Positions 4,720 to 57,043 of a stretch of 64,000 nt of DNA are shown piece after piece. Where the stretch lies: positions 67,969-131,968 of the forward strand of contig JAIYAU010000022.1 in the NCBI GenBank assembly GCA_027488865.1, in the 5' to 3' direction. The notes beneath the pieces are model-generated. The model worked only from the letters and a program-made list of their open reading frames with translations. It was not told the origin of the DNA and searched no databases. Position 1 is the first letter of the stretch. Every line of letters begins with the position of its first letter. The position numbers and the translations under genes are program-made. Origin of the DNA: Cytophagaceae bacterium (GTDB lineage: Bacteria > Bacteroidota > Bacteroidia > Cytophagales > UBA9547).

Positions 4720-6726
4720 CTATTTTGATGAAGGCACCTCTACTTCCACCACTTCACTTTTCACCACATTGCCCAACTTGTCATAAATACGAAGTTGGTA
4801 TTGGTATTTGCCTGGTTTTTTGGCGGTTTTGTCAATCAACTCTGCTTCTGTAATTAATTTTTTACTGAATTGTTGCATGTCCTCGTTTTCGAGGGCACGA
4901 AATACCACTACACCATAAAAATTCTTATCAGTTTCCAATAACCAATTTAGTTTTAATTCTGTTGCTTTTTTGTCAAACTTGGCAGTAAATTTTTTCACTT
5001 TCAAAATTGTATTTGTGTTTACATTTTTAAAACTATAGGGCGTAGAAGCAATGGAAATGTTACTACTACTGTCTGAAGCATATAGAAAATACATGTAATT
5101 CTCATTCGTTTCAGCTGTTTTATCAACAAAAACAGTATCATTTATGGAAATATCTGATTTTAACACTGTTTTTATAGTGTCTTTGCCATATTTCATTCGA
5201 ATCAGAGCATAATTCTTTAAATCGTTGTCTACATTGGCCATCCATATAATTTCAGGAAAATCATTTTTTATTTGAATAGATTTAATAAATGGTTGCGCAG
5301 GTGCTTGCACGTCAGGCAATTGCAAGGCCACCTCAGGGCTAAATTTACTTCTATTAAAATTGCTATCTATGGCACAAACTTTATAGACAAACTTGGTTTT
5401 GGAGGCTTTTGAATATGCAATTTCAAAGCGATTTTCTTTAAAAGGTTTTCCATTCAAAATCACATAGTCTGTTGCACCAGCAGGTGCTTTGTACACAAAA
5501 TAACCCTTCAAATCTTTGTCGGGCGATGCTGTCCAAGTAAGTACAATTTTACCTTTGTCTAAGGTTGCTTTAAAATCCTTGGGTGTTTCTGGTGCTACCA
5601 CATCGCGCACATCGGCCATGATGGCTTGTGAAAAACCTTCATTTCCAGAAGAATCGACTGAGGTGACAACATAATAATATTCATCCACTTTGGGCACTAC
5701 ATCAATGTAATTGGTAGTTTTCTTAGAAATGGGTTTACTGGTTACTTTTTCAAAACCTTTATCGTATTTCAAACTTCTGTACACATAGTATCCACTCAAA
5801 TCAGGCGAGTTTGGGGCTTTCCATTTGAGTTTGATGCGTAAGGTATCTACATCAAGCAACACACTATCAGGAGGAAACGGAGGTTCGAAATCTTTTTTGC
5901 CAACCGTGAGTTCTGGGCTAAAAAGTGAAGCTTGACCAAAATAATCTACTGCCGCAAATTTGTATTGATAAAGAGTGTCGTTTGATGCAGACACATCGGT
6001 ATAATAGTACTTTGGATATTTACCATTTTCGCCCATTTGTGGGTAAATAGCTACATCGTTTAGTTTTTTGAAATCTTTACCATTGGCAGCCTTACGAAAA
6101 ACATCAACCCCAAGGAAAGTTTGAGGCAAATGAAGCCAGCTAAATTTCACGCCTTCTTTTTTTCTTTCAAATTTGATTTCTTGTGGTTCGGAAATAGGTT
6201 TCCAATCTTCTACTTTAATAGAAATTGATGTTGCCATCAAAATATCTGTGCCCGTACTTATTCTCCTCAATATATACTGATAACTTTCACCTTTTACAGC
6301 GCTGCTATCAATAAAACCATTGCCAATGGCATACGCAAAATCAAAATTTTGGACAGCACGTAGCTTTACCATGGCTTTTCCCAAACCCTGTTTATTGATC
6401 GTTTCAGAAGAAAATTTGGACAGATTGGCATAAAATTCGGCATACTCGCCTTCCAATTTCAGAGATGATGGCAAGGATTTCAAAAACGCAATGGGCTGTT
6501 TATTGATCTTTACCAAATTGGTGGTGCCTTCTTTTTTTCTATAAATATTGTATCCCTGTTCGTATTTGAGTTGGTCTGAAAAAAACTTTAGCAATACTTT
6601 ACCAGAACCAATTTGGCGATAATCGTTGGAAACGAATATATAGTTTTTGTTCTTTTTTGGTTTTTGTGCTAGTGTTGCAAAAGCAACAAGTAGCATTAAA
6701 AACACTGATAATTTTATTTTCTGCAT
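4720..6726 (-). CDS. Secreted fibronectin type III repeat protein, last gene of the surface operon
   Basis: 668 aa with an N-terminal Sec signal peptide (MQKIKLSVFLMLLVAFATLA, cut before QKPKK). The body has several FN3-like domains of about 95 residues with the pattern PPxPxxxxL, KLKWKAPxxPDLxGYYVYR and YYVVTSVDSSGNEG; the clearest are at residues ~280-375, 375-470 and 470-565. No T9SS sorting domain, membrane anchor or lipobox Cys is visible, and the C-terminus ends in an FN3-type strand, so it may stay in the periplasm or bind another envelope protein. The ATG is only three bases after the stop of the 2922-aa gene, which implies translational coupling and a shared role. The exact function is not recognised. 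Confidence 0.8.
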   Translation of the reverse strand: MQKIKLSVFLMLLVAFATLAQKPKKNKNYIFVSNDYRQIGSGKVLLKFFSDQLKYEQGYNIYRKKEGTTNLVKINKQPIAFLKSLPSSLKLEGEYAEFYANLSKFSSETINKQGLGKAMVKLRAVQNFDFAYAIGNGFIDSSAVKGESYQYILRRISTGTDILMATSISIKVEDWKPISEPQEIKFERKKEGVKFSWLHLPQTFLGVDVFRKAANGKDFKKLNDVAIYPQMGENGKYPKYYYTDVSASNDTLYQYKFAAVDYFGQASLFSPELTVGKKDFEPPFPPDSVLLDVDTLRIKLKWKAPNSPDLSGYYVYRSLKYDKGFEKVTSKPISKKTTNYIDVVPKVDEYYYVVTSVDSSGNEGFSQAIMADVRDVVAPETPKDFKATLDKGKIVLTWTASPDKDLKGYFVYKAPAGATDYVILNGKPFKENRFEIAYSKASKTKFVYKVCAIDSNFNRSKFSPEVALQLPDVQAPAQPFIKSIQIKNDFPEIIWMANVDNDLKNYALIRMKYGKDTIKTVLKSDISINDTVFVDKTAETNENYMYFLYASDSSSNISIASTPYSFKNVNTNTILKVKKFTAKFDKKATELKLNWLLETDKNFYGVVVFRALENEDMQQFSKKLITEAELIDKTAKKPGKYQYQLRIYDKLGNVVKSEVVEVEVPSSK

Positions 6727-6729
6727 TTT

Positions 6730-9700
6730 CTATATTTCCAATTTAGCCTCAAAATCAATATCAAAATCTTCGCCTAAGAATTCAAAACCAGCATACATTT
6801 TTCCTTCGAATGATTTTTCATTTCTGGTAAGGATCAGTATCAATTCGCCACCCATGTAGACACCCATGCTCACTTTGCCACCAACACCAAATACCTTGCC
6901 CGATATATACGCACTTGCATCGCCTTCTACCTTTATTCGCAGTTTTTCCAATTCTACAAAATTTTCTTCACCACTTTTGGTAATAACCAAAATACCCTCA
7001 CCCTCAATAAGATAACCAAATTTAACTCCAGCACTAATAGATATAACTGTAACGCCTAAAGCCTCTTCAGAAAAACCACCTTCAAGCGCAAAACGATAAC
7101 TCTTGGAAATACCAGCCGCATACCTACGTGGACTTACATGAAAATACCCTTTGGTATCAAGTGACATACACAAAGGACGAAGCGAAGCCATTTTATCGGG
7201 TTCGGCTACCTTGATGTAAAAATCATCCTTGGAAAATTTGCAACTAAACGTGCCATTGTCAATACACATGAGTGGCTTGGTAGCCGTCACTTGTCCGTTG
7301 ATATACAATTCACCCGTCTTGGTGCTAAATGATGCGTAAGCAATGGCCTGCAAAATACTGGTGCTGTTGGTGGTGATCTTTCCAATTTTGCTAGGGCCAG
7401 ACATTTTTATGTTTTGCGTGGCTTGCGGGCCTTTATCGGCCGATTCATTGCCTAAAGCTAAGCCCCACGTATATTTATTTTTGTACAAAGTGCCATATTT
7501 GGTGCTTCCATTGCTCAATGTTGCCGACATCGTGCCTTCGCCTTCGCTTGCAATGGCAATGGTAGCCATTTTTTGTTTGGTTTCTATCAGCACGTTGTTG
7601 TCATCGGTGGCTTTTACATCAAAATCCATTCCTGCCACATTGAATTTAAATCCATCGCTCCCGCTGCCGTCTTTCATTTCCATGCCGTTGGCATCTTTGA
7701 ATTTGATAGGTTGATCGCCACCTGCCACTATTTCTTGCGTTCCATTTTTCAAGGTGATAATGCCATCTTCATCGATGGTAACGCCTTTGTCGCCATCTAT
7801 CATTTTGAGTGAACGGTCTTTCATGAAGGAAACTTCACTCTTTTTATAAAGCACTCCAAAATATTTATCGCCTCCATAGGTAATGCCATAGTCGGTTTTA
7901 AATGCACGAAGTGAGCTCAAGCCGCATTCGATATTTAGATCGTCCCAACCGATGCCGAAATACATTTTGCCTCCAATGCTAAACCACTTATTAGGCATGG
8001 TAAATTTGATTCCTGTAGGACCTGAATAAGACAAATTGTAGTCTTTGATTTTGAAATAAAAGCTTTTGGTAGGCAGTTTGAGGCCTTTTATTCCCAATTC
8101 TAAATCGGCCAATCCTGTTTTAATCAATAAATCGGTGTTGAATTCGAAGCGAGAGAATTTGTCGAAATATATGAGTCCATCAATTTTACCTAAAGACAAA
8201 TTAAAATCATCGTAAGTAAAATTCAATTTGTCTGTCCAGCCGCCTACATTCAGTTTGTATTTGGGCACATTGAATTGAATATTGGGTGATTTGAAGTTGT
8301 ACGACATGGCATAGCCATCTATGTCAAGCGAAAGCACATCTTTGAACTTGAAATTGTATTTGCCATCCATGTACCAAAGTCCATCGAGTTTGCCAAATCC
8401 CAAATCGTATTTGTCCATTTTCAAGCTGATTTTATCCATAGAAATAGAAAACAAATCGAGCTTGTATTTGAGTGAAAGGTCTTTATCAAAATTGTAGTTC
8501 AGATCAAGATCCACATCTTTGAGATTGAGCCCAACATCGCCAATGCTAAACGAACGAATGCCATCGGTAAGGCTGAAATTGCCCACTTTTGGGAAACTCA
8601 TGCCATATTTTCCCCATTTGCCATCAAAAGCCAAAGGCGATACTTGGAAAAATTTATCGATAGAATAATTGAATTTGAGATTTTTGTTGATGTCGAAAGA
8701 AAGCATTTTTCCATTCAAATCTACAGCAAACATTTTAGGGTCGATATTCAACTTGATGGGCAAATAGGCAAAACGAAGCGAATCCATGCTCAAGCCCAAA
8801 TCCAATTTATCCCACTTGGTAGAAATATTGATTGGGGTGATATTGAAATATTTATCTACATCAAAATTGAAACGCAAGTATTTATCCAACTCAAAAGCCA
8901 AAGCCATTTTATTGAATTTGAATTCAATTCCAGTATCGAATAATTTGAATATTTTGGTGTCGTAGGCAAACTGAATGAGTTTGTAAGGCTCAAAATCAAA
9001 TTTGAAAGCGTCAAAACTCATTTTGAACATCTCGGTATTCAAATTATAAGACGCCCAACGAGGAGCTTCGGGCATTTGAAATTTGATATTGAATAATTTG
9101 TCGATGCCGAAAGTATATTTGTTAAATCGCCATTTGAGTTCGTCAAGTGCAAAATCGAAAGCAAAGATGTCGTTAAAGGCCAATGAGAAATCGAATTTGC
9201 CTCGAAAATTGGTTTTGAAATCGCCAAAATTCAAATCAATATCGTAGCCAGAGAATTTGAGATCTAAGCCGCTTGGCATTTTAAAACTCAGGCCATCAAG
9301 TGTAGGAAATTCTAATTTGAAGCCACCCAAATTGAAATCAAAGCCAAAATCTACACCTTTAAACGACAAATCGTATGTAGGGAATTTGACACTCAAATAA
9401 GGAAATTTGCCCAATGAAAAACCGGCATTGAAATCGGGTAAGTTTGGAAATTTGATTTTAAGAAAAGATAAATCTCCATCAATATTATAAGAAAAACTAA
9501 AACCTTTGAATTCGTACAGTTTGCCAATTTCCAAAGTCACTTCTTTGCCATCGATAAATAGTCGTGGTTTTGGTTTGTCGTTTTTCAAAATCACTTCATG
9601 TTCACCATCATTTACCAGCAATGTTTCTTTATCCACACGAACTCGTTTTTGTCCGTTTACAAAATCGACAAACTGTTCAGTAGCATTGCGAGAGGCTTTG

Positions 9701-12700
9701 AAATCTTTGTCACCATCTTTCACCCTAACAAAAACATCGTTATTAGCCAATTTAGAAGCTTCGATGAATACATTGTCAATATAATATTTCACCAATTTGC
9801 TTTTGTCAGCACCCAAGGCAGCCGAAAGACTATCACCTTTGTATTCGTATCGAACCAGTTTTTTGCCATCAGCAAATGTTTGTCCGTACAAATTGACAGC
9901 CTTTATAGATGATTCAAAATAAAGCGTTTTGTCTTTAAATTGGCTGATGAACAACTTGTTATCCGCATCTTTGTATGCAAATACTTTGTCGCCTGTTTTG
10001 TTGATATTGAAATTTGTACTTATCTGACCTGCCTTTACCAAACCCACAAAACGTGTTTTTTCGATAACTTGCATACGCACACTGTCTGCACTTAATTTTA
10101 ATCCCAAGTCGATATTACCTTTGTTTTTATCGGCTAGAATCGAAAAACTATTGGCATTATCAACATAAGTGGCAAAACCGTTGCCTGTTTTATCGCCTTT
10201 CACCACCATTTTCCTTTCTTTTTCTTGGTAATATATATCGCCTTTGCCATCCTTGTTTTCTACATTGGCACCCAAAGAAAAATCAGCATAAGATGCCTTG
10301 AACTGAGCTATGCCTTTGTTTTTATCTAGCTTGGCGCTTATGCTGTCATTGTCCAATTTAAAATATAAAGTACCTTTGGCATCGGATTTAATTCCTGCCA
10401 TATCCACTTTCAAATTGGGTTGTGTGAAATTGAGGCTGCTATTGCCTTTGGAGTCCAAATTGGCATCAAGGCTTCGTTCACCCGTTTTTAGTGAGATGTT
10501 TGCTTTGCCCGCTTTGTCGAAAGCACCAGAAATGCTATTGCCATCTACAGCAGAATTGATGGAACCATTGCCTTCGTTCAAATCAAATTTGCCCGAAACA
10601 CTGTCGCTTGCCAACACAAAACTGGCTATCCCAATTTTGGTTTTTTTATCGCCTTGGATATTCAACATCACATTTTCTTTGGGAATATTGAGGAATATTT
10701 TTCCAAAACCTTTGCTATCGCCAGCCAAAGCCAGAGCAAATTCGGGCATCGACAAGCTAATGCTTCCTCGTCCAGATCGGTCGATGCTTCCGCCCACGAA
10801 GCGATTTCCATACAACCCAGCAAAGCGACCCTTTCCTTCTTTATCGTTCAAATACAAATTGAGTGAATCGTTGTTGGGCAAAGCCAAACTGAAACTGCCC
10901 ATCCCAATGGTTTTATCGCCTGCGGCTACAATTTTTAAATTATCATTTTGGAAAAACAAATTGCCTCTGCCCTCAGCATCTGCCCCTACTTTTACACCCA
11001 AATTGCCTGATTTGAATGAAAGCAGCCCTCTTTTTTCTTTGTATCCTGCCAATTTCAAATTCAAATCAGCATTGTTCATATTCACCACAGCACTATCAGG
11101 ATTTACGGCTAAAATATATTGGTCATTGTCTTTTTTAAAATCGAACAAACCAGATGCTTCATTCAAATTGGCTTTTGTATTGAGTTTGTAGCTGGCAGCA
11201 TCTAAAGTGAAAAATGCTGAACCCTCTTTTTTGTCTGCCCCCAGACTAAATTCTTTTCCGCTTGTGGCAATCAAAATTTTTCCCGATTGGTTTTTGGTAT
11301 CTAAATCGAAACTGTATTTGTCGTTTTCTTTTTGATAAGTCATCCAGCCTTTGCCGTTGTTGGTTTCTACACCAGCATCGAGCAATATTCCCGAAGTATT
11401 AAGTTTCATGCTTGATTTTTCGGTACTTCCTTCAATATCCACATCCACGCCATTGGTATTCACTTTTACTTTGCCTTGGCTATTTTCCTTGTCAAATTCA
11501 ACAGCAAGATTGTCGTCAATTTGCAATTTGCCATAGCCTGATTTTTTGCCTTCCAACCCAATCGAATGTCCATCGGCTTTGATTTTGATGGCTGCCGAAC
11601 CCAAAGATTTATCAATCGAAGTATACAAATTAAAATCGCTACTAGGCACAAAACTCAACGTGGCCGATTGTTTGATGAGGTCACTACTTACGAACATGCT
11701 TTTGCCATCGTAATTCATGCCAAAGCTGCCCCTCCGATTCTTTTCTAAATAGCTGCCTTTTAAGCCAAAACTAGTGCCAACATTAAAATTGAGACTTGCC
11801 GAATCGCCAGGGAAATAAGCCAAACCCATGCCATAGGTATTGCCCGATTTTTTTGCTATGTTGAAAGCCAAGGCTTTGGTAGAGCTACTTCCGGAAATAT
11901 CTAATTTCCAATCTTGGTCTTCAAAATTGAAATACCCAAATTTCTTTATCACATTAGCGCCAAAAGCAATGCTTGTGTTTCCATTTTTACCTTTCAGACC
12001 ACCTTCTGACAAATCGGGTTTGATGTTGGGGTTGAATGTCCAGTCGCCTACTTTTATCGATTGGTTATTAACTTGATTCACCACTTCACCTGCCGCCTTT
12101 TCTGCCAATGGTTGCAATGCGGCACTGGCAGCCTCACCAGGTACAACTGACCTTCCCGTTAAATTCACAAAAGTACCTTCGGCTTGCATCGCCAATTGGA
12201 AATCGCCTTCCAAATACTTCATTTCCAAGCCCACATCTGCTTTTACATTTACACCATTGGAAGAAGCATCTATCAATTGCATGTACAAAGCACCACCGAA
12301 ACGCACCTTTCTGTCTACTTTCATGGTGATAGCCTTGGTCTTTTTATCGACTTCAGACGACATATTGCCATAAATATTTCCTTCTATTCCCACAGCATTA
12401 ATTACCCCTGGCACAATGGGAAAACCGATGCCATCGTCTTTGGCAAATGCTTCGAAATACCAAAATTTAGTTCCTGAAGGATCTTTGCCCACAATCATGG
12501 TAGAACCTGCTTTGATTTTAGTAGGTGCATAAATAAACCCAGACAAAGTACCTGTAAATACATTTCCCCACTGCGGATCGTCCTTTTTGATTTCCAAAGT
12601 ACCTGACATAAATGCTACAGGTGTATTAAGCTCAACTTCTAATTTATCTACTGATTTTATACTCTCAGGCTTTGTATTTAACACTGCCGAAGAAATAGGC

Positions 12701-15498
12701 ACTTTAGGCTTGTTTTCATAATCGTTTGGAATATTGAGGCTGGTATTTAGTTCTATCGAGCCATAGAAATTGTTGGAAAGCGGTTCACCTCCAGGGCCAG
12801 AAAAGTCATCTGACAAATTCATCGCCCCTTTCATATAATACAAATATTTGCCATTCAAATATGCTGCTCCAATCCCAGCAATATTTACTTCAACTATGCC
12901 ATTGGCATAGCCCACCATTTCTTTCTCGAAAATACATTCGCCATTTGGCCTATCGAAACCAATTTGATGAGTGCCAAATATTTTGAAACCACTTTGGTTG
13001 TTTACCGCCATTTTCAATCCCTTCACTTCTACATCAACGGTTGCATCCAGACAGTTAGCTTCACTAAATTTGATGCGTTTTATGGTAAAATCTCCTCTCG
13101 ATTCTGGGGCTTTTTCACTGAAGGTTATTTTTTTGCCTTCGAGTTTTTCCTCCAATATGCCATCAATAAAACCATCATTGTTGATATTTGCCGACACCCT
13201 AAATTTTTTAGCTTCATCAATAATGGGTATATCGATAGATGCTTTGAAAATACCAGATTTGACAACTCCATTTTCAACCAGTACTTCAAACAAGCCAGGT
13301 TTTGCGGAAAATGCGTTGAATTTGATTTTGGTTGTTGGGTCAATTTCTTTGCTATAATTGAAAAATAAACCTGTGGCTTTGAAATAGTTTTTGATCGTTT
13401 TTGTTTTTGAAAGGTCGATAGCCTCCACTACTTCTTCATCGAAAGTAATGCGCTTCTTCTCGTCAAATTTTTGTTTGAATTGTAGATCGAATCGAGGGAT
13501 ATAAGCTCCTTTCCAATCGCTTGGAAAGTCAGCTGGTGATTTTTTGTCAGAAAAATCGATTACAAAATTCTTAGGTTGGACTAACAAATTTGCATTAGGA
13601 ATGGGGCGATATGGCGGTATGCGAATATCGTCTTTCTCGGCATCGAACTCAATATAGGTGAGGTCGCGCAAGTTTACAAATGGCAATGTAATGCGATTAC
13701 CTTCAGCACTTTGCGAACTTTCTGGCAACCCAATACTTCCGTAATACACCAGATCGTATCCATTTATTCCTATAAAAGCGGTGGTATTGGTATCGAGAAG
13801 GATTGTGAAATTCAGCGGCTCCATCAAATCGTATTTGCCAGAAATCTTTACCCCACCCGTAATTTTAAATTTATTGTAATCGACCCAAGTATTTTGTGAG
13901 GTAATTTTGGGCTGTTCACCATCGATTACAATATCCAAAGGCACTACCATTTTGCCTCGCAAGCGAAGTGCATTTTTATCTAATTTCACTGCGTTGGGCG
14001 TAAAAAATAGACTGGCTCTTTTGCCATCTTTTGATTTTATTTCTTCAGCTTCGCCATTGGTGATTTCTTTAAACAATTCGCCTTGTTCGAGAACATAAAC
14101 TTCATTGGCTATCTTTTTTATTTTAATGTCCTTGAAATCGACTTCGGCAAATTTTTTGCCTTCCCTGTCTAACTTCACTCTGCCTCTACCTGACAATTTG
14201 TTCAAATCATTGTTTTTGGTGCTCAAGACAGCCACTTCATGATCGCCAGCCAAAAATTTCTCTAATGTTGGTCGGCCCTTGAATTTGCTAATGACACTTT
14301 CCGCCACTTTTTGTTCGCCTGAATAGCCTTCTATTTTCCACAAAAACCAGACATCTCGTTCAAATTCTTCGTTAACAATTGTTTCCCAAGAAGTAGAACT
14401 GGTTGTAGGCCGGGTAGTTTCGTCATATACTGCTGGTTTATTTTTAAACGCATCTTCAATATTGTTTGTATCCGAGGCATCAATTTTCACAATTCTTAAT
14501 CTATAAGCAACGGGTTGAGATGGAGCCGCTTTATTGTCGGGCGAAAGCCATTTGAAAAGTTGCTGTTTACCAGGTTGGAACTGATGGTTTTTTATAGGAA
14601 ATTCTAATTCTATCTTACCCCCAGTAGGATAACCATACATAAACCAGTTTGGCTCGCTTAAACCATCGTTTCTAAATAGAGCTTGGTTATTTTTATCTGC
14701 TACTTTTACTTGATACACATATCGTTTGCCTATTTCCAATTGAGTGGCCGAAGCATCAAATACAAACTGCAAATTGTTGGTAAACTCACTTTCATATATT
14801 TTCAAAGCATTGTCACTTTTAATAGCTACTGCAGGATCCACACCTTCGGTAGTGATTTCGAACACACGCAACTGATACTCAGTATTGGCTGGATTGAGCG
14901 GCGGAGCCGTCATAATCCATTGGAAAATAATATTTTGTGGATTTGAAGGAAGAACATAATTAGTTCTAGGAGAAATGACCTGAGGAATACCGCCCAATTG
15001 AAAAAAGCCAGAAGCGCACCCTGAATTGGATAATAATTTGCCCGATCTAAAATCTAGAGCTTCAATACAAATGGTATAAAACCCTTCTGGAAGAACCCCT
15101 TTCTCTGTTAAAATTTTAGGATCTGTACCAGAAATCGCCACATTTTCAAAAGCCAAATACGGCACCCAATCATCTCCAGCAATTGATAACGGTACCCCTG
15201 GATAAATGGTAATGGGCGAGTAACCTGCTGAAGGACTAGATTCAATGGTAACGCCGTTGCTCGATGATATTTTAACTTTCAAGCGAATTTCCCATGAAGG
15301 CTCGGAGAAATCTTTGAAAAGCAAAGTAGCCATTAAGGCTTTACTATTCACTTTATAAAAATCAGAATAAAAAGGAGAATAGGGAGGATTGAGCAAGGTA
15401 TTAATTTGCACGGGTGTTTGTACTTGGCCTATGGTCGAAAAGCAACTGAGTAGGCCCAATAAAAATATCCCAATTCTTATTAATTTGTTCATTTTCAT
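6730..15498 (-). CDS. Giant (2922 aa) envelope protein with N-terminal TANFOR-like region and long amphipathic beta-repeat zones
   Basis: Begins with a Sec signal peptide (MKMNKLIRIGIFLLGLLSC, then FSTIGQVQ). Residues ~25-180 (NPPYSPFYSDFY, then LPEGFYTICIEA) resemble the TANFOR domain named from Tannerella forsythia; I recall this rather than searched it. Residues ~180-400 have two Ig/FN3-like units (FQWIMTAPP, FKWLSPDN). Residues ~400-1200 are mixed beta-rich sequence. Residues ~1200-1800 are a repeat zone of ~20-22 residue beta units marked by GxGxxxF and DKxxG turns. Residues ~2010-2515 are a Phe/Leu/Asp-rich zone of alternating hydrophobic and polar residues. The C-terminal ~400 residues are glycine-rich beta sequence ending FEAKLEI. 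No T9SS CTD, catalytic motif or membrane helix is visible. It sits directly upstream of the FN3 gene and downstream of the barrel gene. Function unknown; a structural or groove-forming envelope protein is my inference. Confidence 0.85.
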   Translation of the reverse strand: MKMNKLIRIGIFLLGLLSCFSTIGQVQTPVQINTLLNPPYSPFYSDFYKVNSKALMATLLFKDFSEPSWEIRLKVKISSSNGVTIESSPSAGYSPITIYPGVPLSIAGDDWVPYLAFENVAISGTDPKILTEKGVLPEGFYTICIEALDFRSGKLLSNSGCASGFFQLGGIPQVISPRTNYVLPSNPQNIIFQWIMTAPPLNPANTEYQLRVFEITTEGVDPAVAIKSDNALKIYESEFTNNLQFVFDASATQLEIGKRYVYQVKVADKNNQALFRNDGLSEPNWFMYGYPTGGKIELEFPIKNHQFQPGKQQLFKWLSPDNKAAPSQPVAYRLRIVKIDASDTNNIEDAFKNKPAVYDETTRPTTSSTSWETIVNEEFERDVWFLWKIEGYSGEQKVAESVISKFKGRPTLEKFLAGDHEVAVLSTKNNDLNKLSGRGRVKLDREGKKFAEVDFKDIKIKKIANEVYVLEQGELFKEITNGEAEEIKSKDGKRASLFFTPNAVKLDKNALRLRGKMVVPLDIVIDGEQPKITSQNTWVDYNKFKITGGVKISGKYDLMEPLNFTILLDTNTTAFIGINGYDLVYYGSIGLPESSQSAEGNRITLPFVNLRDLTYIEFDAEKDDIRIPPYRPIPNANLLVQPKNFVIDFSDKKSPADFPSDWKGAYIPRFDLQFKQKFDEKKRITFDEEVVEAIDLSKTKTIKNYFKATGLFFNYSKEIDPTTKIKFNAFSAKPGLFEVLVENGVVKSGIFKASIDIPIIDEAKKFRVSANINNDGFIDGILEEKLEGKKITFSEKAPESRGDFTIKRIKFSEANCLDATVDVEVKGLKMAVNNQSGFKIFGTHQIGFDRPNGECIFEKEMVGYANGIVEVNIAGIGAAYLNGKYLYYMKGAMNLSDDFSGPGGEPLSNNFYGSIELNTSLNIPNDYENKPKVPISSAVLNTKPESIKSVDKLEVELNTPVAFMSGTLEIKKDDPQWGNVFTGTLSGFIYAPTKIKAGSTMIVGKDPSGTKFWYFEAFAKDDGIGFPIVPGVINAVGIEGNIYGNMSSEVDKKTKAITMKVDRKVRFGGALYMQLIDASSNGVNVKADVGLEMKYLEGDFQLAMQAEGTFVNLTGRSVVPGEAASAALQPLAEKAAGEVVNQVNNQSIKVGDWTFNPNIKPDLSEGGLKGKNGNTSIAFGANVIKKFGYFNFEDQDWKLDISGSSSTKALAFNIAKKSGNTYGMGLAYFPGDSASLNFNVGTSFGLKGSYLEKNRRGSFGMNYDGKSMFVSSDLIKQSATLSFVPSSDFNLYTSIDKSLGSAAIKIKADGHSIGLEGKKSGYGKLQIDDNLAVEFDKENSQGKVKVNTNGVDVDIEGSTEKSSMKLNTSGILLDAGVETNNGKGWMTYQKENDKYSFDLDTKNQSGKILIATSGKEFSLGADKKEGSAFFTLDAASYKLNTKANLNEASGLFDFKKDNDQYILAVNPDSAVVNMNNADLNLKLAGYKEKRGLLSFKSGNLGVKVGADAEGRGNLFFQNDNLKIVAAGDKTIGMGSFSLALPNNDSLNLYLNDKEGKGRFAGLYGNRFVGGSIDRSGRGSISLSMPEFALALAGDSKGFGKIFLNIPKENVMLNIQGDKKTKIGIASFVLASDSVSGKFDLNEGNGSINSAVDGNSISGAFDKAGKANISLKTGERSLDANLDSKGNSSLNFTQPNLKVDMAGIKSDAKGTLYFKLDNDSISAKLDKNKGIAQFKASYADFSLGANVENKDGKGDIYYQEKERKMVVKGDKTGNGFATYVDNANSFSILADKNKGNIDLGLKLSADSVRMQVIEKTRFVGLVKAGQISTNFNINKTGDKVFAYKDADNKLFISQFKDKTLYFESSIKAVNLYGQTFADGKKLVRYEYKGDSLSAALGADKSKLVKYYIDNVFIEASKLANNDVFVRVKDGDKDFKASRNATEQFVDFVNGQKRVRVDKETLLVNDGEHEVILKNDKPKPRLFIDGKEVTLEIGKLYEFKGFSFSYNIDGDLSFLKIKFPNLPDFNAGFSLGKFPYLSVKFPTYDLSFKGVDFGFDFNLGGFKLEFPTLDGLSFKMPSGLDLKFSGYDIDLNFGDFKTNFRGKFDFSLAFNDIFAFDFALDELKWRFNKYTFGIDKLFNIKFQMPEAPRWASYNLNTEMFKMSFDAFKFDFEPYKLIQFAYDTKIFKLFDTGIEFKFNKMALAFELDKYLRFNFDVDKYFNITPINISTKWDKLDLGLSMDSLRFAYLPIKLNIDPKMFAVDLNGKMLSFDINKNLKFNYSIDKFFQVSPLAFDGKWGKYGMSFPKVGNFSLTDGIRSFSIGDVGLNLKDVDLDLNYNFDKDLSLKYKLDLFSISMDKISLKMDKYDLGFGKLDGLWYMDGKYNFKFKDVLSLDIDGYAMSYNFKSPNIQFNVPKYKLNVGGWTDKLNFTYDDFNLSLGKIDGLIYFDKFSRFEFNTDLLIKTGLADLELGIKGLKLPTKSFYFKIKDYNLSYSGPTGIKFTMPNKWFSIGGKMYFGIGWDDLNIECGLSSLRAFKTDYGITYGGDKYFGVLYKKSEVSFMKDRSLKMIDGDKGVTIDEDGIITLKNGTQEIVAGGDQPIKFKDANGMEMKDGSGSDGFKFNVAGMDFDVKATDDNNVLIETKQKMATIAIASEGEGTMSATLSNGSTKYGTLYKNKYTWGLALGNESADKGPQATQNIKMSGPSKIGKITTNSTSILQAIAYASFSTKTGELYINGQVTATKPLMCIDNGTFSCKFSKDDFYIKVAEPDKMASLRPLCMSLDTKGYFHVSPRRYAAGISKSYRFALEGGFSEEALGVTVISISAGVKFGYLIEGEGILVITKSGEENFVELEKLRIKVEGDASAYISGKVFGVGGKVSMGVYMGGELILILTRNEKSFEGKMYAGFEFLGEDFDIDFEAKLEI
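7900..9470 (-). repeat. Phe/Leu/Asp-rich alternating beta zone of the 2922-aa protein
   Basis: About 500 residues in which short strands of the form LxFxFxL alternate with DK, GK or DG turns (for example LSFKMPSGLDLKFSGYDIDL). A looser 50-60 residue period is visible through recurring DKYFNI, DKFFQVSP and DKYDLGFGKLDG segments. Strong alternation of hydrophobic and polar residues over the whole zone points to amphipathic strands. Confidence 0.7.
10100..11870 (-). repeat. GxG-turn beta-repeat zone of the 2922-aa protein
   Basis: About 590 residues built of roughly 20-22 residue units, often in pairs of about 40. Units carry a turn like NKGKGxIxF or KTGxGxxxF followed by a strand ending SLxxDK (for example DKEGKGRFAGLYGNRFVGGS and DRSGRGSISL). 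Weakly MORN-like in spacing, but without the MORN consensus (YxGxxxxGxxxGxG). Confidence 0.65.
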
Positions 15499-15567: not shown

Positions 15568-17310
15568 TTAAAAAACAAAATCATATCCAATTTTGCCTTG
15601 GTATTCGCTAAACGTTTGTCCTTGACCTTCTATGGTGTTTTTTTTGATCAATGACGTTTCCAATTTAATAGCATGGTGCTTGTTTACTTTGTAGGTGGCA
15701 GATATTTTATTGGTTAATGTGGTAGATTTAGCAGCAATGTCTGTGTTGTTTAAGTAAGCTGTGGTGTACACCAAATTCAACTTCTTTTCCAGCATTTTTT
15801 TATTTAAACTTATAGAAGGACCGATGGAAATTGTTTTAACATTAGGGGCTTCAATTTGATTGTATAGTATAGCGGCCGTGCCACTTGCTTGCCAAGGCTG
15901 ATTATTAACTGTATAGCTTCCACTTATATTAGAAACCTTATTGGTTTGTAAAACTTGATAATTGATGAATTCTTTGATATCGTTTGATTCTTGAAATGTG
16001 ACTGCCATCATGGCCGAATGCTTAAATTCTGATTTGCCCCAAGAATAATTTAATGTCCCTCCACGGCTTTGGTTAATCTGAACTAATTTTACCGAATCTT
16101 TCTTAGTGATTACAGAAGGCGAGGTTGAGTGATTAAAATTAGTATAATTTAAGTTCAACACTAAGTTATTTATAATAGTGTATGTTACGTTAAACGAGCC
16201 AATGTACCTTCTCATGGTCTGAGCGAGATTATTCTGAAGGTTATTTTTTTCTGTACCTACGTTGGCCGCTAATAAAACCTTATTTTGAAACAAACTGGTG
16301 TTCGTATTTAAAGTATATGCTTGTATATCGTTTTTGGCAGTAAGTACGCCCAACGAGGCATAAGTCGGATCTACACGTAAATAATTGATGCCTACAGTCC
16401 AATATTTTTCTTTGTAATTAGCTATCACATTATAAGCGTTGTTAAAAGTGGTTGAATTTAACGGAGTGAAAAAACCTTTCAAATTGTTAAAATAATTATA
16501 TCCTCCTGTTTGCTCAAAATTTAAATTTCTTTTATCCAATGTAAGTGCACTAGCCGTATATTCTACCATCAAATCTAATTTCTTAGTAATTTGGTTTTTG
16601 GTTTTTAAGCCCAATACCAAATTTTCTTTTGGGCTAATTCCAAATTTTGTATTTATTATATCCCCTGGATAATAATCATCCTCAGCATGAAAAAGGATTA
16701 AAGAAACATTGTGCTTCGATTTGCCCAATTCTACTTTAGTACCAAAACCCTTTCGTAAATATGCGGGGGCTATTGGCGTACCATTAATGGTATCCCCTAT
16801 TGTTCTCCTATTTAATCGACCATAAAACATAGCAAGTTTAACTAATCCATTGGTAGGTGCTAATTCTACTCCCCCACCAAACCAACGAACGCCAGAATAT
16901 GAATATTTAGAAAAATCTAGAGCTCGATCTCCCACATGTATGGTCACCCATTTGTATTTGGGACTAGCACCAGTTTTATTTAATATTGAATAAAGTACAG
17001 CTAACGGGTCACCAGATTTAGTAATACCACTATTAGTATAATTTATAGCAAATGGAACTGAAACCTTGCCAAACAAAGTAACTGTGGCATTTGCATTAAG
17101 CGCATAGGCAAATGGTGCTCTTCTTGACGCTATTCCATTTACCCCATAGCCAACCGCAGAAGCATTGAAGCCACCTGTTACCTTTATAGGTTTTACCTTT
17201 TTCAAATTCTTGATGTCTTCCAATGCTTTTTCAGCGTCTTGAGCAAAAAGAAATGCGGGGCACCAAAAAATAAACAAGAAAAGTATTTTACTGTTAAGCT
17301 TTGAATTCAC
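15568..17310 (-). CDS. Outer-membrane beta-barrel protein (putative), T9SS operon
   Basis: 580 aa, GTG start at 17310; a stop codon directly precedes it in frame and no ATG lies near, so the GTG is the likely start. Signal peptide MNSKLNSKILFLFIFWCPAF, cut near FAQ. After a short Lys-rich stretch (EDIKNLKKVKPIKV) the rest alternates hydrophobic and polar residues in ~10-residue strands with many aromatic residues, and the chain ends GKIGYDFVF: a C-terminal Phe is typical of BAM-inserted barrels. Position between porP/sprF and the 2922-aa gene suggests an outer-membrane partner of the adhesin system. No family recognised with certainty; a pore, receptor or assembly factor are all possible. Confidence 0.75.
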   Translation of the reverse strand: MNSKLNSKILFLFIFWCPAFLFAQDAEKALEDIKNLKKVKPIKVTGGFNASAVGYGVNGIASRRAPFAYALNANATVTLFGKVSVPFAINYTNSGITKSGDPLAVLYSILNKTGASPKYKWVTIHVGDRALDFSKYSYSGVRWFGGGVELAPTNGLVKLAMFYGRLNRRTIGDTINGTPIAPAYLRKGFGTKVELGKSKHNVSLILFHAEDDYYPGDIINTKFGISPKENLVLGLKTKNQITKKLDLMVEYTASALTLDKRNLNFEQTGGYNYFNNLKGFFTPLNSTTFNNAYNVIANYKEKYWTVGINYLRVDPTYASLGVLTAKNDIQAYTLNTNTSLFQNKVLLAANVGTEKNNLQNNLAQTMRRYIGSFNVTYTIINNLVLNLNYTNFNHSTSPSVITKKDSVKLVQINQSRGGTLNYSWGKSEFKHSAMMAVTFQESNDIKEFINYQVLQTNKVSNISGSYTVNNQPWQASGTAAILYNQIEAPNVKTISIGPSISLNKKMLEKKLNLVYTTAYLNNTDIAAKSTTLTNKISATYKVNKHHAIKLETSLIKKNTIEGQGQTFSEYQGKIGYDFVF

Positions 17311-17401: not shown

Positions 17402-18823
17402 TTAGTACAGCCAAATGTTACCAAAAATCAAATCGTCTATTTTCTGCTTTTTAATCCTGTTAATTTCTGTTAACGCGTCCCTGTAATTTGTAACCTCTTT
17501 TGTAGATACCAAATAATAAGTTTCGTTTCTACTTCTTATAACTGATGTGGTAAGATTAGCTCTTTTTAACAGAATCTTTTGGTACTTTTTAACATCTTCA
17601 AATTTGTAGTAGGCCGCAATTATTACGCTAGCTTTACCTTTAGGAAAATCCTTAATAAATCTTTCATCCCCTGCTTTGTTATCAAGACTTGACAAATTTT
17701 CAACTGCTACCTCATCCACCATGCCTTGTGACTCTTCCGCATAAATATTTTGGATATCAGCATTGAATGCACTTTTCAGAAAATCTGGGTCTATTCCATC
17801 TTTCATGATAAATACATGGTACAAAGTATCTGATCTGCGGTTATTTACAGATTTAATATCTGATTTTGGCACTTCTCGAGTTTCTGATAAGGTGTAGCTA
17901 TCGGAGGAAACACTTTCATCAGTTATTGGTTTGGATTTAGATTTTGACCCCAAATTATATCCAATACATAATTCATGAATTCCTGACGAAACAGTAGCTA
18001 AAGCACTAGTTGGATAGCCATAATTATACCCAACAGTTAAGTTGTCATATATTAAACCCAATGTAGCACCCACAGCAGAGCGAGAATCATAGGTTAACCC
18101 ACCCCAAAACATTTTTTTGAAATTGAAAATTGCATTTGCCGATACCATGGTTTCAGTACCTTGTGAACTTCTTCCTATTAACAAAGGATTGAAAGTTATA
18201 TCATTAACAATTGGTAAATCATATTTTACAAACAATTGATAAACTGGATTTTGCAAGTAAGATAAACTACCTGTCTCGATTTTAGATTTGGCGAAATTTA
18301 TGTTGGTAATTGAAATACCAGTTTGTAATTGTTTTCGAGTATAAGTAAACCCAAAATCTGATGTAAATTTAGCACTAGGGCGTAATCTTGTGAAACTTTG
18401 AATCTCATCGGCGCTGGAAGCCACAACGCTGTTAAGGTCAACTCCTGTATTAACATAACCAGCTGACAACCCTAACCTAACGTTTTGGAGAGCACTAATA
18501 GGTACTAGATAGCTGTAGCTCAAATTAGCTCCAAAGCGTTTAATAATATTCATTTTATCATTATAAAGCTGAAGCCCCAAACCCATTCTCTCGTGAGGCA
18601 GACCTTTGTCCATAGAAATAAGCATACTTTCAGGTGCGCCTTTAAAGCCTACCAATTGATTGCGATAATGAGCGAAAGCCTTCAGATCTGCAGTATTTCC
18701 TGCATAAGCTGGACTTAGCAAATATGGATTAACAAAAGTTTGGGTGAAATTGCTAGTTTGTTGCGCCTGAAGCGATAAAACCATATTGACCCCTAAAACG
18801 ATAAGTAAAATACTTTTTTTCAT
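17402..18823 (-). CDS. PorP/SprF family T9SS outer-membrane protein with C-terminal SPOR-like extension
   Basis: PorP/SprF proteins are outer-membrane barrels needed for export or surface attachment of type-B CTD adhesins such as SprB. Family signs: the mature start QQTSNFTQTFVNPYLLSPAY, then AGNTADLKAFAHYRNQLVGF and ISMDKGLPHERMGLGLQLYN, followed by barrel strands to about residue 295. The family usually ends there (~300-330 aa). This one is ~473 aa and adds a Ser/Lys-rich linker and a final ~75 residues resembling a SPOR domain (a strand, helix, then YYLVSTKEVTNYRDALTEIN). I place the start at the ATG at 18823, which begins a signal peptide (MKKSILLIVLGVN); an upstream in-frame ATG at 18862 overlaps the previous stop by 4 nt. 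It directly follows a type-B adhesin, as sprF follows sprB. Confidence 0.9.
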   Translation of the reverse strand: MKKSILLIVLGVNMVLSLQAQQTSNFTQTFVNPYLLSPAYAGNTADLKAFAHYRNQLVGFKGAPESMLISMDKGLPHERMGLGLQLYNDKMNIIKRFGANLSYSYLVPISALQNVRLGLSAGYVNTGVDLNSVVASSADEIQSFTRLRPSAKFTSDFGFTYTRKQLQTGISITNINFAKSKIETGSLSYLQNPVYQLFVKYDLPIVNDITFNPLLIGRSSQGTETMVSANAIFNFKKMFWGGLTYDSRSAVGATLGLIYDNLTVGYNYGYPTSALATVSSGIHELCIGYNLGSKSKSKPITDESVSSDSYTLSETREVPKSDIKSVNNRRSDTLYHVFIMKDGIDPDFLKSAFNADIQNIYAEESQGMVDEVAVENLSSLDNKAGDERFIKDFPKGKASVIIAAYYKFEDVKKYQKILLKRANLTTSVIRSRNETYYLVSTKEVTNYRDALTEINRIKKQKIDDLIFGNIWLY

Positions 18824-18858
18824 TTTTGTAAATTGTATAGTGTTTTTGAATAGGATTA

Positions 18859-21800
18859 TCATTTCGTAAGACCAGATTTATCTGCATTTACCAAAATCGT
18901 GAGTGTGCCTTTATGCACCACACTTGAATTTTCAAAAGTAACAACAAAATAATAAGTACCATCGGGTAATTGATCACCAGCTTTACTTGTGCCTCCCCAA
19001 TTGTTTTGGTAATTGCGAGCCTTAAAAACTTCCTGTCCCCATCTATTAAAAATCATTACTGTATTGTCTGGGTAGGAGGTGATATTATCGATTACCCATG
19101 TATCATTTTTCCCATTACCATCTGGAGTAATAATATTTGAAAGAGTATTATCTATTCCTACTAAATTAAAATCATCATTTACAGTTACTTTAATGGTGTC
19201 AGAAGCCACGCAACCTCTTTTGTCGGTTACTGAAAAAACATAATCCTCCGATTTTTCAGGTTTGATAATCACTGAAGAGGATAATGGATTATTTATCCCA
19301 TCTAGAGGACTCCAAGTGTAGTTTCCTTCTGAAGCCGAGACATTTAAATAAATAGAAACGCCCTTAGAAACAGTGGTATCACCGATTAAGGATACCTTTG
19401 GCAAATCGTAAATGGTAATGGCTTTGGTAGTACTATCGCTACATTGACCACCACTTATCGTTGCCTTTAGAGTGACATAATAAGTACCTGATGACAAATA
19501 GACATAGGTTGGATCTTTAATATTATTCTTGTTGCCATCATCAAAGTTCCAGCTATAAGTCAGTACTCCTGCTGTACCCGATGAAATGGTGGTGCGGTTT
19601 ACAAATGCCGCAGGCGTACCAAGACAGGCATTATCAACTGTAAAATTAGCCACAGGCACATTATTAACTGCTACTGCCTTGGTTAAGCTTTGTTTGCAAC
19701 CTTTATCTGATTCAGCCAATAATGATACATTGTAATTGCCACCATTTAAGAACTGATGGATAGGATTTTCTTGTAATGAATTGGTAAGATCTCCAAAATC
19801 CCATTGATAATATACCAAACTACCTGTTGGAATAGTTGAAGTGTTTTTAAATGTGGTTGGGAATCCATCACAAACAGTGTCATTTGCAAAACCTACAACA
19901 GGCAAAGGATACACAGTAATTTGCTTTTCGGTAGTGTCTAAACAATTTCTATTTGATACCGTCAATAACCTCACGTTGTAAGTAGTAGGGTTGGTGTATG
20001 TAGTGGTTGGATTTACCAGATTGGAGATTTGGTTATTTCCCAATGTCCAAGTATAGGACATAGTACCTGATTCTATAGAAGAAATATTGCTGAAATTAAC
20101 CGACTGACCAGCGCACAATTCATTAAATGTAAAATCAGCATTTGGTTTTGGATATACCTCAATGTATTTACTAGTGGCACCTTTGCATCCCTTATCAGAG
20201 GTAGCAATTAATTGTACAAAATAAGTTCCAGGACCATTATATGTTTTTAATGGATTGGTACTTGCAGAAGAAGATTGATCACCAAAATTCCAATTGTAGG
20301 TAATAGCACCACTATTTATTTGAGAATTGTTAATAAAACTGGTTTGCAAACCATAACATACATCTTGTGCATTGAAAAGTACAATAGGATTAGGATATAC
20401 ATTCAAAGGAATGTTCTTGTTGCTTTGGCAACCTTTATCTGTAGTCACCGTCAATTGTACATTGTAAGTCCCATTGCTACTATATATTACAGCTGGTTCG
20501 GTATTACTTGAAACAGTACCATTCCCAAAATTCCACAAATAACTCATCGTACCCGCATTTAGCGTACTTAAGTTGGTAAAAGAAAACACATTGCCTTCAC
20601 AAGTGTCTTTCTTAGAAAAATTAGCAACTGCAGCATCAAACACGTTAACCAATTTGGAAGTTGAATCTGTACAACCGTTTAAATTTGAAACGGTTAGCAC
20701 AACTTTATAAGCTCCAGGATTGATATAAGTGTAATTAGGACTTTGGGCTGAAGATGTACCTATAAAATCACCAAAATTCCAAGTAAAGCTCGAATTGCCT
20801 GATATTCCTGAACTTTGGTTGGTAAATGACATTTGTGATCCTTTACAAATGTCGTTTTGGATAAAACGAGCTGTTGGCTTTTGGCTTACAGTGATCAATT
20901 TAGATGTAGTATCTGTGCATCCTCTATTTGAAGTGACAGTTAAAAACACCCTGTAAGTACCATCTTGGGTAAATGCCCTACTTGGATTCAAAAGATTTGA
21001 AGTAGTACCATCACCAAAATCCCAGATCCTACTAGCAATTGTGCCTGTACTTATCGATGAATTGTTAGTAAATGTGGTAGATTGGCCAAAACAAGTGGAA
21101 GCGCTATTGGTGAATGAAGCAACTGGATTTGCATAAACTGAAACTGTTTGCACCTTACTATCCGTACAGCCACTATTAGATACACCCACCAAACTTACCG
21201 CATAATTGCCAGCAGAAGTATAGGGTTTTAATGGAGATACTAATGATGATGTCGGAGAGCCATCGCCGAAGGTCCAAGTGTAATTGACGGTACCTCCAAA
21301 AAATGCAGAAGTATTGTTAAAATTGACTGTATCGTTGGTACAACTATTATTATAAGTAAAATTTACCGTCGGTTTTTGGTAAATAATAACTTCTTTCTCA
21401 ATGCTTTGTATACAATTACGATCGGAGGTGACAGTTAATTTAGCATAATAACTTCCTGAGGCAGCATAAGTTTTGGTTGGGCTAAGCGCATTTGAATTTG
21501 TACCATCTTTATAATCCCAGTTATAGAACATTGTTCCTGAGCTAATTGTGGAAGTATTATTGAAGGTAGTTGATTGCCCTATACAAACATTTGCTACATT
21601 GAAATTTGGCAGTGGATTAGGAAACACCTGCACTGACTTGCTTATTGCATTATTACAACCAAATGGTGAAGTTGCAGTAAGGGTAACATTAAATATGGCA
21701 GGAGCAGAAAATGTATATTCAGGATTTGTAAGTGTAGAAGTGTTGCTTCCGTCGCTAAAGTTCCAAAGGTAGGTAAGATTGCCAGTGGAAATGTTGGTTG

Positions 21801-24800
21801 TATTTACGAATTTCATTGCATTGCCATCACACACATTGGTAAAGCTAAAATTAGCTTGAGGTTTTTCGAAAATAGTAACAGTTTTGGTTAATGATTTAGC
21901 ACAAGTTCCATTGGCAAATACCGTCAAACTAACGTTATAATTTCCTTTGCTCGCATATGTGTGTGTTGGGTCACTTGTGTTAGCCGTAAAACTATCTCCG
22001 AATCCCCAAGCATAAGTAAGCGTATAACCAGGCAAACTAGACAAATTGGTAAATGCAACGGGATTTTGGTCACATACATTAATAAAATCAAAGTTGACAT
22101 CAGGCAAAGGACGCACAACCACTGCTTTGGTAATCGAATCTTTACATAATTTGGCAGAAGTCAATATCAATTTTATATTGTAGCTGCCTGCACTTGAATA
22201 GATGTGACTTGGCGCTGTAATAGAAGACCCAGTATTATCGCCAAAATTCCAAACATTAGATAAAATGCTTCCTTCTATAATACTAGAGGTATTGGTGAGT
22301 GTAGTAGCAGCATTTAAACAAGCGGTTGAAGCAGAAAAATCTGGTACCGGCAGTGGATTTACATTTACTTGCTGTTCGGCAGAATAAATATCTCCACCAT
22401 CTTCGGTAATCACTGCTCTGAACTTTGTAGTTTGAGTTAATGAATTAATTGCCAATGATGTAGCCCCGCTTGAAGCAGCAATATCGTTCCAAGAAACACC
22501 ACTATTAGTAGAACTTTGCCACCTAGATATTGTACCCGTTTGATTGAATAATGACAAGGTTCTAGTAGTTGCATCTCCTGAACAAACTTCAGCAACACCA
22601 GTGATGCTACCGCCGTTAGCAACACTAATCAAAATAGTGTTTGAACTTGTTGTTTCTGAACATTCACCATTTTTTACTATGGCTCTGAAATACGTAGTCG
22701 CAGCTAAATTTGTATAATTCAATGGACTTGTTGTTATATTGATGGTTTGCCAAGGAGCGGTATTAGTTATAGAAGACTCCCATCTTACAACAGCACCATT
22801 ATTCCCAACCAAATTAATAGAACCGGTGTTAGCATTTGGACGTACCGTTTTGGCACCTGACAAAGTACCTCCAACCGTTTGGTCATTTACCAAAATTTCT
22901 GCTACTGTTGAATACACAGGACTAGCACAAGCTGAATTTATCACTGCTCTATATCTTGTACTAGAAGTTAAATTAGAATAGGTAAAAAAAGTAGCTCCAG
23001 CATTTCCGACGTTGGTAAAAGCCCCCCAAGTAGATGTCAAGGTGTTGTAAACGCTTTGCTCCCAATTATTTACTGTTCCTATGTGATTGGTCAATGTCAC
23101 CGATCTTGAAGTACCATCAAATGCACAAACACTTCGACTTCCGCTCACCGTACCTCCTTGTGCCACAACAATTTGCAATGCTGCTGTACTTATTTGTGTA
23201 CAAGCCCCATTTTTTACCACCGCACGATAATAAGTAGATTCGCCCAAATTATTAAATGAAAGACTTGAGGTTATGTTAGCAATAGCTATCCACGGTTCAC
23301 CATTAGTGGTTGAAGATTCCCAACGAACTATTCCACCTGTATGTCCCGTCAAGTTTATGGTGCGAGAAGTGATATCATTCGGACAAACTGTTGAATTGGC
23401 TGTGGATAAAGTACCTTGCACTGTGGCAGAGGATACATTGATAAGTAACTCATTAGAAAAAGCCAAGCCGCTATTTACATTTACTCGGTATTTAGTGTTT
23501 TGCGTTAAAGCATTAAATGAAATTGTATTAAAATTGGCTGAACCACCTACTGGAGTCCAAGTTGTATATGGACTAACCGAACTTTCCCATAAAAAACTAG
23601 TAGACTCAATTCCAGCTACATCCATACTACCTGAAGTTGAAGGCGAACAAAAATCTGTAGCAGAAGCTGAAATCGTTCCTCCTTTGGCAACAGTTATTTT
23701 TACTGGAACTGTTGACGCTATTTCATTACAAGCACCATTTTTTGTCACTACCCTGTAATATGTAGATTGTGTCAAATTATTGAAATTATAGGTAGTGCCA
23801 TTGGCTGACAGTGGTGTCCATTGGCTATTGTCAGCAGAAAGTTCCCAACGCAAAATATTGCCATTGACTGGAGCCGCAGTTATTGACCTTACAGTTGGGT
23901 CAGCATTGGTTACTGTATTGTTTCCCGAGGGGTTAGTAATGCCCGTTGGTGTGGCTACTGTTAAGTTTAACTCTTCGGAATAAGCTAATTTGCTCACTGT
24001 AGCATTGGTAGCATCACGACAAGTTTGTGTAGCTTTGAGTCTGTAGATATAGTTATTAGCTGCCAAATTAGTAGGTGTAGAATAACTTGCTCCTGTCGAT
24101 ATATCAGTATATGAACCTCCGGTTGACTGTTGCCATGTTAGCAATGTTCCTGAAGTATTACTTGATGTTAAATTAGCGCTAGTCCCAAAACAAATTGAAG
24201 ATGCTGAAATAGTAACAGCTCCACCATTTGGTACTGGAGCTATATCTAGAAATACCGCATCGGTGGTCAACGTTTGAGGGCATACTCCATTTTTAATAAT
24301 TGCTTTGTAATAAGTAGGTGTAGCCACATTAGCATAAGCTAACGAATTAGTAGCATTTGATATATCTGTCCAAGGCGCAGCATTGTTGTTGGAGGATGCC
24401 CAACCAATTACGCTACCTACAAAACCTGAATTCAAGAAAATCGTACCGGCGTTATCTCCTGAGCAAAGTTGAGCTGCAGTTGAAGTAAAAGTAGCAGAAC
24501 CTTGACTTGAAGCTGCAAAAACCGTTACTCTAGATTCGTTAGAGTATTGGTAAATTCCTCCCCCGACATTAATTCTTGCACGGTAACGTCGTGTTCCTGT
24601 AAAATTGGTGGTTTCATCAAAATAAGTAAGGTTACTAGTTACATTATTCCAACTGGCCCCATCATTGGTAGAATATTCCCATCTATCTACAGCATAACTT
24701 GCTTCACCCGCCCAAGTAAGCCTAACGCTTGTTGAAGAATTGAAGCAAAATTCATTAGAAACAGGATATATCCCACCCTGTCCAAATACGTGAACAGCCT

Positions 24801-24840: not shown

Positions 24841-24896
24841 CTTAAGTTTATTTTTAGGGATAATACTAATGCAATTAAAAATCATGAACTAAGTAC

Positions 24897-57000: not shown

Positions 57001-57043
57001 AAATATGCTGTAATGTTATTAAATCACCCCTAACAGCATATTT
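57001..57043 (-). terminator. Terminator overlapping the stop codon of the right-edge adhesin
   Basis: AAATATGCTGT (57001-57011) pairs with ACAGCATATTT (57033-57043), loop of 21. On the minus strand the stem is followed by TTAGTC after a run of five T. It is likely a terminator for the adhesin gene that ends at 57043. Confidence 0.55.

Follow-up and report, generated by a model that had tools for sequence, protein, structure and literature searches.

Several described systems bear a likeness to the locus analysed here. The TCP/G-box domain of CPAP/SAS-4 in the eukaryotic centriole has been described as a freestanding single-layer meander of about 20 antiparallel strands, with tight turns and no hydrophobic core (PMC3776556). 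TamB is reported to possess a hydrophobic groove (PMC11014939), and the belt of apolipoprotein B has been described as an amphipathic beta-sheet (PMC12419007). The designed peptides KFE8 and (FKFE)2, in which Phe alternates with charged residues, are short, synthetic and self-assembling, and alternating Phe/Lys/Glu peptides are reported to join their hydrophobic faces into bilayers (PMC13063417). A further likeness is to the TANFOR proteins (TIGR02542), through the N-terminal part that the present protein (P0001) has in common, by homology, with its relatives; three of the four relatives scanned match this family with E-values of 1.3e-10 to 8.8e-6 (25.7-41.4 bits, all below the 67-bit cut-off), and P0001 itself gives no match at E <= 1. 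Unlike P0001, most of the related giants have no one-faced stretch of the kind discussed below.

The window, i.e. the whole stretch of 64,000 nucleotides that was analysed, comes from Cytophagaceae bacterium (GCA_027488865.1, contig JAIYAU010000022.1, positions 67,969-131,968 of the forward strand). The feature under study, at 7900-9470, is read on the minus strand (9470..7900) and corresponds to residues 2010-2533 of P0001, which is encoded by a single unbroken minus-strand ORF (15498..6730, 2922 residues) and is whole in the source genome with 0 internal stops. The parts of P0001 and the neighbouring genes are as follows.

6730..15498, minus strand: P0001, giant protein of 2922 aa, Sec-type N-terminus as read from the sequence
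14239..15498, minus strand: residues 1-420, TANFOR-like and Ig/Fn3-like N-terminal part (by homology), common to many Cytophagales giants
12151..14241, minus strand: residues 420-1116, family module (alignment A2), strong in relatives
7429..12156, minus strand: residues 1115-2690, accessory insert, missing in the 1380-aa relative of genome G004
9529..11901, minus strand: residues 1200-1990, region A, beta repeat with a strand period of 10.8 residues
7909..9531, minus strand: residues 1990-2530, region B, putative one-faced Phe/Leu beta-meander
9007..9186, minus strand: residues 2105-2164, the only stretch with block pLDDT of 61-79, in the second AlphaFold model
8509..8910, minus strand: residues 2197-2330, tandem 66-residue pair within region B
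6730..7428, minus strand: residues 2691-2922, conserved C-terminal domain, 68% identical in G004
15568..17310, minus strand: 580-aa protein ending in YDFVF, conserved cassette partner, probable outer-membrane barrel
17402..18862, minus strand: PorP/SprF-family carrier (E 5e-53) with a weak SPOR-like tail
4720..6726, minus strand: 668-aa protein, Fn3-like by sequence reading, conserved cassette partner
18859..24885, minus strand: 2008-aa PKD-repeat protein with a CHU_C sorting domain

The hydrophobic alternation in region B is real and far beyond chance. For residues 2010-2534, the mean hydrophobic moment at the beta angle, a check proposed in the preliminary description, has a z of 10.4 against 200 shuffles, the lag-1 autocorrelation of hydrophobicity is -0.51, and a two-phase parse yields 56 segments with z = 11.6 (58 segments for residues 2010-2560). 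Segments of 7 or 9 residues are the commonest and the turns comprise about 2 residues, the parse giving a strand count of about 55; the preliminary description had proposed about 40 alternating short strands, of which the alternation is upheld and the count is not. The alternation sets in at about residue 1990 and weakens around 2530. The feature is composed of 13.3% F, 12.2% L, 11.6% K and 10.5% D, which the parse divides between one face with 86% large hydrophobics (F 28, L 25, I 11, Y 9 and M 6%) and an opposite face with only 5% (K 19, D 18, S 12, G 12 and N 12%). Region B differs from the KFE8 and (FKFE)2 peptides in being one covalent chain with built-in turns, which also uses Leu and Ile.

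In 200-residue windows the autocorrelation of the P0001 region reaches -0.60, and among 20 other proteins the nearest values belong to its homologues in the genomes G003 (-0.57) and G041 (-0.41), followed by the TamB of the source genome (-0.31). Parse z-values, 11.6 in P0001, are 9.8 in the G003 and 9.7 in the G041 homologue, as against 1.7 and 2.0 in two pieces of TamB, 3.5 in a PKD protein, 4.1 in the 580-aa barrel-like protein and 2.9 in the PorP carrier; region A gives 2.8 in P0001 and 3.7 in G041. Of the sites that are large hydrophobic in P0001 and substituted in G003, 94 of 114 stay large hydrophobic (expected 44%, p 2.8e-17). Regions A and C of P0001 show such conservation too, at a weaker but still significant level, so that conserved hydrophobic sites alone are not special to region B. 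The hydrophobic-faced beta surface suggested in the preliminary description is borne out by the phase parse, the composition of the two faces and their conservation in G003, and neither disorder nor a globular fold without a continuous hydrophobic face was encountered.

Alternation with a polar opposite face would also be expected of a giant transmembrane beta-barrel, and (FKFE)2 strands are reported to be able to span the membrane in simulation (PMC12292791). The turns of region B are, however, mostly short on both edges and most of its segments have 7 or 9 residues, whereas in outer-membrane barrels one side of the sheet has the longer loops. The barrel-like proteins of the window score far lower in the parse than region B, no barrel family was found at E <= 1 in Pfam or NCBIfam, and the stretch is internal and removable. 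The barrel, one of the folds offered in the preliminary description, is thus disfavoured and appears very improbable.

A self-comparison of region B brings out two pairs in tandem, one at 66 and the other at 68 residues, and the 66-residue pair has a z of 6.1 against shuffles that preserve the hydrophobic pattern. The two halves of the region show no likeness beyond the pattern (z 1.4, pattern-keeping shuffles), and a scan for periods of 6 to 40 residues found none significant (best power 3.8, shuffle 95% level 6.9). The weak repetition of 50-60 residues reported in the preliminary description therefore survives as the two pairs, of greater length than proposed, and does not extend to a regular period or to likeness between the halves. 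Region A (residues 1231-1960) carries a beta repeat unlike region B, with a period of 10.8 residues (power 24.4, shuffle 95% level 7.7) and a hairpin length of about 21.5 residues. A beta-solenoid, or parallel helix, was a further fold offered in the preliminary description and is consistent with the richness in beta-strands and the two pairs of 66-68 residues; it is contradicted by the lack of a significant coil period in region B, by the phase of the alternation, which switches at each turn, as it does in antiparallel hairpins, and by the better-predicted piece, which best matches antiparallel meanders. The chances of a solenoid are accordingly slight in the extreme.

Structure prediction, the other check proposed at the outset, gave no confident model of the region as a whole. 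AlphaFold modelling of residues 1985-2560 with two sequences gave a mean pLDDT of 40.4 and a pTM of 0.29, and that of a 261-residue piece a mean pLDDT of 38.6. In the latter model residues 2105-2164, at block pLDDT of 61-79, are predicted as a single-layer antiparallel meander, with short, mostly 6-residue strands and tight turns. With VIA-align, model residues 16-103 (residues 2100-2187 of the protein) match the CPAP G-box/TCP sheet over 87 residues with a Z of 11.5 at 2.8 A, followed by a phage spike (Z 9.0), OspA (8.3) and MORN proteins (about 7.5); Z-values near 8 are common in this method, and the CPAP rows alone stand well above them. CPAP is thus the best structural match for this piece, which resembles it in having consecutive antiparallel strands in one layer, but the match spans 87 of the approximately 540 residues of region B, and the coreless CPAP domain of about 20 strands differs from a region with about 55 strands. 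Given that 86% of one face is large hydrophobic, the resemblance would be one of local fold and not of membership, and the PDB sequence search found no sequence kinship with CPAP.

Foldseek found nothing at E <= 0.001 with the second, 261-residue model. The first model gave four matches (teneurin, IFT-A) at rmsd of 31-34 A, which were rejected as noise. Sequence searches named as little: P0001 found no similar PDB chain at E <= 0.1, alignment A3 found none at E <= 1, and Pfam and NCBIfam gave no convincing name for any part of P0001. Five weak PDB rows obtained with alignment A2 (E 0.098-0.93) were set aside. At the level of sequence, we found no relative of region B in Pfam, NCBIfam or PDB. 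If folded as read, region B would be an unusually long, one-sided natural beta-meander.

One face that is almost wholly hydrophobic across about 520 residues could also meet lipid, either in an open groove like those of TamB and VPS13, the repeating beta-groove offered as the third form in the preliminary description, or as a belt lying flat on the outer membrane or on a lipid body in the manner of apolipoprotein B. TamB resembles P0001 as an envelope protein with a long beta region and a hydrophobic face. Repeats of the TamB type of beta-groove consist of five strands plus a loop. A search of the source genome with the TamB profile (PF04357) returned one match, on contig C18, and none in P0001, and alignment of region B to that TamB stays at shuffle level (z 0.0), leaving no kinship beyond the pattern. 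The apolipoprotein B belt is likewise a long sheet with a single hydrophobic face (PMC12419007), but region B is bacterial and the link consists of weak apoB-100 rows in fold searches with the low-confidence model, which at rmsd of 25-35 A are no evidence of a common fold. In simulation, (FKFE)2 peptides are reported to adsorb to and enter membranes (PMC12292791). Contact with lipid is, on balance, a possible but rather unlikely role for the face. A specific form of it, in which bacteria would have their own equivalent of the apolipoprotein B belt and a covalent ribbon of more than 50 strands would lay its Phe/Leu face on lipid within a type IX-linked envelope platform, is distinctly unlikely; the lipid in question might be the inner leaflet of the outer membrane, a vesicle or another lipid.

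Region B belongs to a rare beta insert that is accessory within its family of giant envelope proteins from Bacteroidota. The counterpart of P0001 in G004 is a frame of 1380 residues, which is 60% identical to residues 4-1114 and 68% identical to residues 2691-2922 of P0001 and has nothing between; the absence of this modular insert, with the remainder 60-68% identical, suggests that the protein can do without it in its core role. In G003 the insert is retained from residue 1570 onward (45% identical), the N-terminal part running off the contig. A tree of the Fn3-like proteins places G003 outside the group formed by the P0001 genome and G004 with support of 100/99, which favours the presence of the insert before the split and its loss in G004. 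A comparable long beta insert occurs in G041, which belongs to another family. There region A aligns with a z of 7.2, and region B scores 186, where 60 shuffles that preserve the pattern reach 166 at most (z 4.6). The G041 insert is therefore likely, from these alignments, to be kin to that of P0001, although region B does not rise far above the pattern; a tree of the N-terminal part of the giants places G041 without strong support.

The region itself is seldom encountered. As a query it was found in 3 of 390 genomes of the order, and as a profile in 2 of 395 genomes of the phylum, the source genome being included in both counts; the second match in the phylum (G659) is weak (E 8.3e-4 over 70 positions of a 309-aa frame). 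The module of residues 420-1116 was found in 40 of the 390 genomes and is strong in 15. Among 27 stretches chosen from the hits (9 + 18, not every hit being taken in), a 200-residue window with a value of -0.41 or lower occurs only in the giants of G003 and G041, and the remaining giants of those stretches lie at about -0.19 to -0.34. A scan of genome contigs found one relative, a Cytophagales MAG identical to the G003 contig, and no match was found in phage records or viral contigs. In a related giant of G007 (L036 10228-15279, 1684 aa) the match to P0001 breaks at residues ~920-1290, and a long stretch at about these residues looks helical by eye; this part of the family thus seems to accept unlike inserts.

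The giant is encoded in a conserved PorP-barrel-giant-Fn3 cassette; in the local gene order the PKD protein with CHU_C is followed by the PorP/SprF carrier, the 580-aa barrel-like protein, the giant and the 668-aa Fn3-like protein. A homologue of the 580-aa protein accompanies the giant on 17 of the 27 stretches and one of the Fn3-like protein on 13, several stretches being cut by contig ends. Its company of PorP carrier, barrel-like and Fn3-like proteins points to a probable seat of the giant at the outer membrane. PorP-like carriers are believed to keep type B substrates at the surface, immobile where the partners are linked to the wall, and a static wall-linked anchoring has been proposed for PorE-linked carriers (PMC9143113; PMC12618676); the link to the moving track is reported to rely on twin cysteines in the SprF tail (PMC12635249). 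As far as can be read, the tail of the window's PorP carrier has no twin cysteines. SPOR is matched in this carrier at E 0.13, and of three PorP homologues from related cassettes one has a weak SPOR match (E 0.0022, below the cut-off), another has a clear OmpA domain (E 3.7e-16) and the third lacks both. At L095 8154-9662, in a related cassette, a PorP/SprF-family protein is fused to an OmpA peptidoglycan-binding domain. We infer that the cassette may form a static, wall-anchored platform, with the 2008-aa PKD protein as the probable surface cargo of the PorP carrier. The cassette is not named in the titles or the opening of the abstracts of the literature found, which is no proof that it is unpublished, and with its conserved PorP carrier, barrel-like, giant and Fn3-like proteins it offers a concrete target for study.

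Such surroundings, with PKD adhesin-like neighbours, and the aromatic content of region B (25% FWY in the most extreme window of 200 residues) are compatible with a flat aromatic surface that would attach, extracellularly, to an insoluble polymer or some other hydrophobic surface, within an adhesin platform. The face, however, is built of Phe and Leu, whereas sugar-binding surfaces are usually of Trp and Tyr, and P0001 has no type IX C-terminal sorting domain (Por_Secre_tail or CHU_C) by Pfam and NCBIfam, though its neighbours carry them. Binding of a polymer is accordingly improbable.

The reading that we favour, with a probability of about 0.42, is that the greasy face of region B packs on the face of another sheet, in the same protein or in a second copy, and forms a stiff beta ribbon; this value and the ranking of the alternatives are judgements and were not computed. 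Region B would be a long antiparallel meander of ~55 short strands with tight turns, carrying nearly all of its large hydrophobic side chains on one side and Lys, Asp, Ser, Asn and Gly on the other. Its carrier would be a Sec-exported giant envelope protein, probably located at the outer membrane in a wall-anchored adhesin platform. As a Phe/Leu-faced sheet is unlikely to stand free in water, a cover would be needed, the likeliest being a second beta face supplied by region A, by the far half of region B or by a second copy. The outcome would be a two-layer ribbon, which may serve as a stiff spacer. Packing of this kind is favoured by the strength of the alternation and the contrast between the two faces, the pairing of hydrophobic faces reported for alternating Phe/Lys/Glu peptides, the absence of TamB kinship in region B, the removable insert, the conservation of the hydrophobic sites in G003 and the CPAP-like antiparallel model piece, and the OmpA or weak SPOR matches of related PorP carriers speak for the wall-anchored setting; counted against it are the low mean pLDDT of both models, the short reach of the structural match, the lipid insertion of (FKFE)2, which supports the lipid-facing alternative equally, and the apparent dispensability of the insert in G004. 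How such a face stays soluble within the envelope, and which of lipid and a second sheet acts as its cover, bears on the way in which Bacteroidota assemble large envelope platforms around type IX secretion.

Other genes of the window were also recorded. A 371-aa protein at 32781-33896 has a weak phage tail-collar match, and its homologues lie beside the cassette in L035, L039, L087 and L089. At 50-4636 a reading of 1528 aa, whose ORF begins before the window, contains 14 Big_7 Ig domains and a Por_Secre_tail, and a reading of 2312 aa at 57043-63981 carries a type IX sorting domain, CHU_C, at its end.
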